NCBI RefSeq assembly: GCF_017792025.1
Contig: NZ_CP046956.1
Location: 620,001 to 684,000 of the forward strand
Direction: 5' to 3'
Source: Sediminibacillus dalangtanensis
GTDB lineage: Bacteria; Bacillota; Bacilli; Bacillales; Amphibacillaceae
Length of the DNA: 64,000 bases
The translations under genes were made by a program, and so were the position numbers. Shown one piece after another: positions 12,410 to 12,965 of this stretch; position 1 is the first letter of the stretch, and every line of letters starts with the position of its first letter. The notes below the pieces were generated by a model, which did not search any database, had not been told where the DNA came from, and worked only from the letters and a program-made list of their open reading frames with translations.

Positions 12410-12877
12410 CTATTCTTCTTCTGTAATAGACCAGCTATGTTCAATTTTCACACTGCCTTTCAATGTCTGTGAAACAGGACAATTCCGGTCAAATACGTGA
12501 AGCGCACGTTCTGCTTTTTCGCGTGTTCCTTTGGGGATCGTTAAATCATAATGACCTGCAATCTTTGTGATTTTTAAGACGCCCTCTGGTGCCTCAATGG
12601 TACCCTTGAAAGATCCTTTTATCTTATCTGGATATGTTGGGATTTTGCGCGCTGCCAGCGCACCTGATAATGTACCAGTAAGTCAGCCGCCAGCGGCAGC
12701 AACAATGTGATCAAGTGTGGAAGGTCTCTCAACTTCTGGAACTCTTTTATAAAAGTCTTTTACACCACCATGCATCCCATAATAGATAGGTTCTTCAAAA
12801 TCAGCAATATAGGCTCTTCGGTCTCCACCTTGATCTAGCTCTACGGTGATATTGGAAATTTCTATCGTTTCCACCAA
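12410..12877 (-). CDS. OsmC/Ohr-family protein with in-frame UGA at the catalytic Cys (candidate selenoprotein or nonsense mutant)
   Basis: The frame from TTG 12877 encodes 64 residues ending DHIVAAAGG, meets UGA at 12683-12685, then continues uninterrupted for 90 residues to TAG at 12410. The second part begins LTGTLSGAL and includes DRNCPVSQTLKG, both OsmC hallmarks. The UGA (codon 65) lies exactly where the family has its first reactive cysteine (AAAGGC-LTGTL); the second cysteine is Cys133, the normal distance away. OsmC/Ohr proteins reduce organic peroxides. A seven-pair hairpin with a GGC loop lies 26 nt after the UGA. Either the UGA is read as selenocysteine or a Cys codon mutated by one base. 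AAAGGAG precedes the start. Confidence 0.75.
12647..12663 (-). promoter_or_regulatory. Hairpin resembling a bacterial SECIS element
   Basis: In mRNA sense: GUGCGCU (12663-12657), loop GGC (12656-12654), AGCGCGC (12653-12647), giving seven pairs with one G-U. The loop starts 26 nt after the in-frame UGA and begins with G. Known bacterial SECIS hairpins sit directly after the UGA, with the apical loop roughly 16-37 nt away and a G in its first two bases. The codons (Gly-Ala-Leu-Ala-Ala-Arg) are GC-rich, so chance pairing is possible. Confidence 0.45.
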
Positions 12878-12965
12878 AAGATTACACTCCTTTCACTATT
12901 TTGCATAACATTCTATTAGGTACCAATGGAAAAAGCAATTACCCGGTCTTAGTCCTTTTTTTAAT

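Follow-up and report, generated by a model that had tools for sequence, protein, structure and literature searches.

An in-frame UGA and a near-invariant hairpin in an OsmC-family gene of Sediminibacillus dalangtanensis: a very likely selenoprotein gene of Bacilli

Does a UGA codon inside an otherwise undamaged OsmC-family gene of Sediminibacillus dalangtanensis betray a broken gene, or is it the site at which selenocysteine (Sec) enters the protein? The gene lies on the minus strand at positions 12410..12877 of the window, as we term the entire 64,000-nt stretch of DNA analysed, which is part of a 4.10-Mb single-contig genome. An initial annotation made from the sequence had set Sec decoding against a single Cys-to-UGA mutation as its main alternative. 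The comparisons described here argue that this is very likely a genuine selenoprotein gene in which UGA codon 65 is decoded as Sec (probability about 0.96): relatives keep the same UGA and the same hairpin and possess the Sec machinery, which makes a working Sec-containing stress protein very probable. An apparent pseudogene would thereby become a conserved selenoprotein gene, held by 46 of the 397 genomes sampled from the host's order.

The reading frame and its predicted product

The OsmC-family frame (minus strand, 12877-12410) comprises 155 codons plus a stop, contains a single TGA at 12683..12685 (minus strand; codon 65, read as Sec), and reaches a TAA-type end after residue 155. It opens at an apparent TTG, with a GTG one codon later as a possible alternative start, and an RBS-like AAAGGAG (12887..12893, minus strand), which may serve as the Shine-Dalgarno sequence, stands 9 nt upstream of the TTG. 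The read-through product, in which the residues AAAGG-U-LTGTL surround codon 65, matches the Pfam OsmC model at 53.7 bits against a cut-off of 27.5; its scores with the two NCBIfam OsmC models that it touches, TIGR03562 and TIGR03563, stay under their cut-offs. Besides this gene, five TGA-interrupted frames are listed for the window, one of them at 447-689, and a scan of the other four gave no Pfam match.

An AlphaFold model of the read-through protein adopts the OsmC fold, and its top structural matches are OsmC and YhfA; among solved sequences YhfA (1ml8), entered just as a hypothetical protein, is the closest. Codon 65 lies in the central helix of this fold (residues 54-76). Sec65 and Cys133, the presumed resolving cysteine (codon at 12479..12481, minus strand), align to both cysteines of the solved OsmC and YhfA chains and are invariant in 23/23 aligned rows, with the spacing that is normal for the OsmC superfamily. 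Three features described in the initial annotation thus stand: the frame is intact around a lone UGA, as judged by translation and the Pfam match; the UGA occupies the first reactive cysteine position of OsmC/Ohr proteins, as judged by column alignment with solved chains and Cys homologues; and the second cysteine follows at residue 133, at normal distance. Also invariant in the 23 rows is Asp56, which lies near Sec in the AlphaFold model and near the Glu of YhfA, and no invariant Arg was found in the N-terminal part of these rows.

The UGA, the hairpin and the decoding machinery

Species genomes were scanned with peptide words that spared the hairpin codons, and 58 named loci were recovered. 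Codon 65 is TGA in all 60 loci obtained when the window's own gene and one congener are included, and in 90/90 after the addition of 30 loci from whole genomes; neither TGC nor TGT occurs, and the hairpin behind the codon is likewise conserved. Many of the loci L081-L110 repeat contigs of L023-L080; duplicates were therefore set aside and conservation was assessed on the distinct sequences, 70 in all, or 69 once L080, which bears a hairpin deletion, had been left out of the conservation and pairing counts. A further 20/20 rows, some of which repeat earlier genes, have the TGA and the same hairpin. Among these rows is L152, a locus from outside the host's class whose product shares 36% identity with the window protein.

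The putative bacterial SECIS hairpin, GUGCGCU-GGC-AGCGCGC, occupies 12647..12663 on the minus strand (5' arm 12663-12657, loop 12656-12654, 3' arm 12653-12647). It forms seven pairs around a GGC loop, starts 19 nt past the UGA and places its loop 26 nt past it, exactly as first reported. Folded alone it reaches -9.3 kcal/mol. The limits for bSECIS elements given in a recent review (loop of 3-9 nt with G in its first two positions, stem of 4-16 bp, distance of 16-37 nt from the UGA, MFE <= -7.5; PMC13188914) accommodate the window hairpin in every respect, so that the earlier judgement that it fits bacterial SECIS rules is sustained on these published terms. Fold energy as such was discarded as proof of a SECIS, since 97/2000 random synonymous recodings are at least as stable and the energy is therefore weakly unusual.

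The stronger evidence comes from synonymous conservation. Codons 73 (GCG), 74 (CTG) and 76 (GCG) of the hairpin are the same in 69/69 distinct sequences, despite the four codons available for Ala and the six for Leu. In the hairpin region (codons 72-77, 5 usable columns) the mean relative synonymous entropy is 0.14; the 78 usable columns in the rest of the gene average 0.87, and the lowest values among these belong to codons 64 (0.31) and 66 (0.47), both of which flank the UGA. Together with the uniform TGA, these frozen codons place the hairpin signal far above chance, unlike the energy alone. At the stem base, codons 72/77 read GGC/CGU in 49, GGU/CGC in 14 and GGC/CGC in 5 of 68 sequences; GGU/CGU, which would put two wobble pairs together, occurs in none (Fisher 9e-11, a value that is no true probability because the sequences are related). 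The helix is paired in 96.2% of cells among 19 sequences, and one-sided GU/GC exchange is seen among relatives. In those 19 sequences no pair has changed on both sides, so that support for the hairpin takes the form of sequence constraint, not of classical covariation. The consensus GGYGCGCUGGNNGCGCGY is nearly frozen to the letter in genes whose proteins range in identity from 99% to 36%, which suggests that the element may be read by its sequence besides its shape and offers a clean substrate for defining what the SelB of Bacilli recognises.

A search of the whole host genome for selA, selB, selC and selD found all four, clustered at about 1.517-1.523 Mb. The tRNA-Sec gene (C1:1519107-1519199) scores 66.5 bits in the family search, where the gathering score is 47, and is identified by ARAGORN as tRNA-SeC (anticodon tca); the family search is loose, with matches in 14/14 control genomes and 5 of them over the cut-off, so the cut-off and the anticodon carry the call. 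SelB scores 387 bits (cut-off 242), SelD 423 bits (cut-off 125) with one in-frame TGA, and SelA 477 bits in Pfam. By the proposed mechanism, whose decoding step and Sec position have good comparative support, SelB and tRNA-Sec would decode UGA codon 65 as Sec under the direction of the hairpin directly behind it; the resulting protein would be full-length, adopt the OsmC fold and carry Sec at the first (peroxidatic) cysteine position, with Cys133 as its partner.

Several other features of the selenium locus were observed. The in-frame UGA of selD (GGUG) is codon 40 (L009 10806-10808 = C1:1517806-1517808), with hairpins behind it. Between selB and selA lies a SelW/Rdx-like frame (L009 14735-14980, about C1:1521735-1521980; Pfam Rdx 67.6 bits) with the motif C-M-Q-U and, behind its UGA, a hairpin with a GUU loop at -7.5 kcal/mol; it is a candidate selenoprotein gene. 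An Rfam Bacillaceae-1 RNA (62.7 bits) is found at L009 1999-2065.

Database homologues bear on how else the codon might be read. Among 128 of them, comprising the best 120 of 886 profile matches and those of a first search, the Sec column holds Cys in 73, Trp in 13 and Gly in 1, and is absent from 41 short C-terminal proteins; by a pattern count, 34 of these 41 begin at the codon directly after the UGA. Entries of this kind, named for example 'OsmC family protein' and coming from Mesobacillus and Halobacillus, imply that many database records of the Sec-OsmC gene are C-terminal halves only. In a tree of 21 TGA rows, the 13 Trp rows, 26 of the 73 Cys rows and the Gly row, the TGA rows and 8 Trp rows form one clade (29 rows, support 100/98) with the Cys rows outside. 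This placement of 8 of the 13 makes it probable that the Trp rows are UGA codons which gene callers translated as Trp. Four more distant homologues from metagenomes (P0034, P0036, P0044, P0053), also with Trp in the Sec column, form a small clade of their own, possibly a second Sec branch whose UGA was taken for Trp.

That the gene is an ordinary Cys gene struck by a recent nonsense mutation or a sequencing error is exceedingly improbable: distant homologues do have Cys, and a single substitution turns TGC or TGT into TGA, but a UGA shared down to the 36%-identical protein outside the class is old, which rules out the recent mutation once ranked as the main alternative, and the agreement of independent assemblies excludes a sequencing error in practice; the frozen hairpin and the Sec machinery stand against this reading as well. 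The first argument drawn from the undamaged remainder of the gene, that the UGA is either recent or functional, accordingly survives in its second half, through conservation, and fails in its first. A standard residue such as Trp, inserted by near-cognate decoding or under a changed code, could account for the Trp entries, of which the eight inside the TGA clade fit gene calls with UGA as Trp; against it, no Trp is found among the others in the Cys clade, and Cys is the commonest residue at the column among the 128 homologues. The hairpin, moreover, fits the SECIS model, and a SelB match (E <= 5e-98) is present in 46/46 genomes with a full-length copy, 41 of them over the cut-off and five (G057, G068, G073, G139, G379) taken by E-value; insertion of a standard residue is thus very improbable, if marginally less so than a damaged gene. 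The public annotation, in which translation stops at the UGA and the C-terminal half starts alone, is echoed by the 34 database proteins that start there. It would require initiation at a codon that is CTN in the loci, no usual start, and would split the OsmC fold within its central helix, and the six-frame list holds no ATG/GTG/TTG frame of at least 50 aa for the C-terminal half; a pair of separate products therefore has hardly any probability. Sec insertion remains the reading that these observations favour.

Known OsmC families and possible chemistry

The occurrence of OsmC-like selenoproteins in bacterial surveys, invoked in the initial annotation, is documented for marine metagenomes: three Sargasso Sea sequences were described first, in 2005 (PMC1088965), and five GOS sequences in 2008 (PMC2398784), both sets with the motif UxxT, and such a protein also figures in the lists of PMC9312934 and PMC13188914. 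These marine proteins resemble the window protein in belonging to the OsmC family (COG1765/PF02566) and in having one Sec, a downstream SECIS and Cys homologues. They differ in motif, since the window clade carries U-L-[TV]-G-T (the third place being T or V, also I or S), with T at +4 and not +3. The window's U-L-T-G-T thus departs from UxxT, the published motif being the basis of comparison, and the protein is classed as a variant and not as the same family. They differ too in that they are few metagenome sequences, whereas the window clade occurs in many named Bacilli. In the literature searched, which partly covers newly found selenoprotein families, neither a Sec-OsmC of named Bacilli nor a large Bacilli clade with U-L-x-G-T is described; a 2006 survey counts three selenoproteins in Bacillales (PMC1794560), and OsmC is absent from the 18 complete rows of a 2016 top-20 table (PMC5029168).

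Cys homologues of the subfamily (e.g. P0101, from an Acidobacteria MAG) share the pattern P-[ST]-T-L-D-x-x-V-x-A-x-x-[GS]-C-L-T-G-T-L, with Cys at the Sec column, and differ in having Cys for Sec, at 37-48% identity. No full-length Cys version of the branch was seen in the Bacilli samples (397 genomes of the order, 398 of the class), and to judge from these sequences the Bacilli clade is apparently Sec-only. The YhfA/OsmC/Ohr peroxiredoxin-like families have the same fold and the same two reactive positions; the window protein has Sec in place of the first Cys, and 'PSTLD' where Ohr has 'NPE'.

What such a protein would do can be approached through its fold. Sec is often used in peroxidases, and Ohr/OsmC hydroperoxide reductases employ a catalytic Arg and Glu. 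In an OsmC-type peroxidase cycle the Sec65 selenol would attack the peroxide, a selenenyl-sulfide would form with Cys133, and a cellular thiol would recycle it. We consider this chemistry moderately probable, given that the protein has an OsmC fold with both reactive positions in place and Asp56 near Sec, and that Sec is frequent in peroxidases. A smaller yet substantial probability attaches to a protein that receives Sec but is no hydroperoxide reductase, acting instead on another substrate or as a thiol/selenol oxidoreductase or sensor. The uninformative name of its nearest solved relative is compatible with such a role, and the Ohr-type Arg is not invariant, which leaves a peroxidase role open. 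The host genome also holds four further OsmC-family genes, all without stops; the two that were translated (L111, L113) both have Cys, and L113 carries an Ohr-like NPEQLFAAGYAAC motif, so that the classical role against organic hydroperoxides may fall to these other genes.

Retention, loss and transfer

The 46 genomes of the order with a full-length gene hold 47 copies, each with exactly one TGA; the remaining matches are decayed pieces (G089, G353, G269 and shorter) or generic OsmC genes, at <=46 bits and without stops. The initial annotation had regarded Sec decoding as uncommon in Bacillaceae, which is not what the order presents: SelB exceeds its cut-off in 179/397 genomes, a share far above expectation for these bacteria. 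Against that background, SelB in every one of the 46 gene-bearing genomes corresponds to a hypergeometric value of 3e-18, ignoring kinship. Full-length copies also occur in 13/398 genomes of the class sample, 10 of them outside the order and all with one TGA, and in 5/398 genomes of the phylum sample (the host's own and four others).

The Bacilli in question are mostly aerobic. Should an OsmC-type peroxidase of theirs indeed use Sec, organisms that are easy to grow would allow a direct test of why Sec survives under oxygen. The host genome yielded no match for the formate dehydrogenase alpha subunit. It is conceivable, although we regard it as doubtful, that these Bacilli run a previously undescribed Sec-only OsmC branch, with a SECIS perhaps read by both sequence and shape, and that this branch, alongside a Sec-containing SelD and the SelW/Rdx-like protein and in a genome without formate dehydrogenase, is a main reason for keeping Sec decoding. 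Such a situation would run counter to the view, expressed in a 2026 review, that selenoproteins are rarely retained in aerobic bacteria (PMC13188914).

Within the host genus the gene is found in 2/5 genomes, both with TGA, and SelB in 5/5, so the gene can apparently be lost without loss of Sec decoding. The three genus genomes that lack it, together with the decayed copies G089 and L080, indicate that it is dispensable. The copy of Cytobacillus oceanisediminis CGMCC 1.10115 (L080 3001-3451) has suffered a short deletion between the GCGCG repeats of the hairpin and a frameshift, and this strain retains SelB despite the decay; in C. oceanisediminis 15_TX (L076) the hairpin is intact. Litchfieldia salsa carries two Sec-OsmC copies in one genome (L023, L096), and L023, which encodes a protein with 88% identity to that of the window, lies between flanks that do not match those of the window, which suggests horizontal transfer. 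No tblastn match for the gene was obtained in plasmids.

In the seven genomes of genus g69 that carry the gene, counting the decayed copy G089, the distance to selB is about 7-9 kb, an arrangement taken as synteny and not as proof. The osmC-selB interval of a Mesobacillus-type locus (L144) encodes methyltransferases, Nudix and HIT proteins, a DnaN-like protein and others, and no selenium gene was recognised among the frames scanned; for loci L145 to L148 the frames were listed and one, from L146, was scanned. Two records, titled Chryseobacterium sp. ISL-80 (L037) and Pseudomonas sp. ISL-84 (L075), carry genes of the Bacilli type and are probably misnamed.
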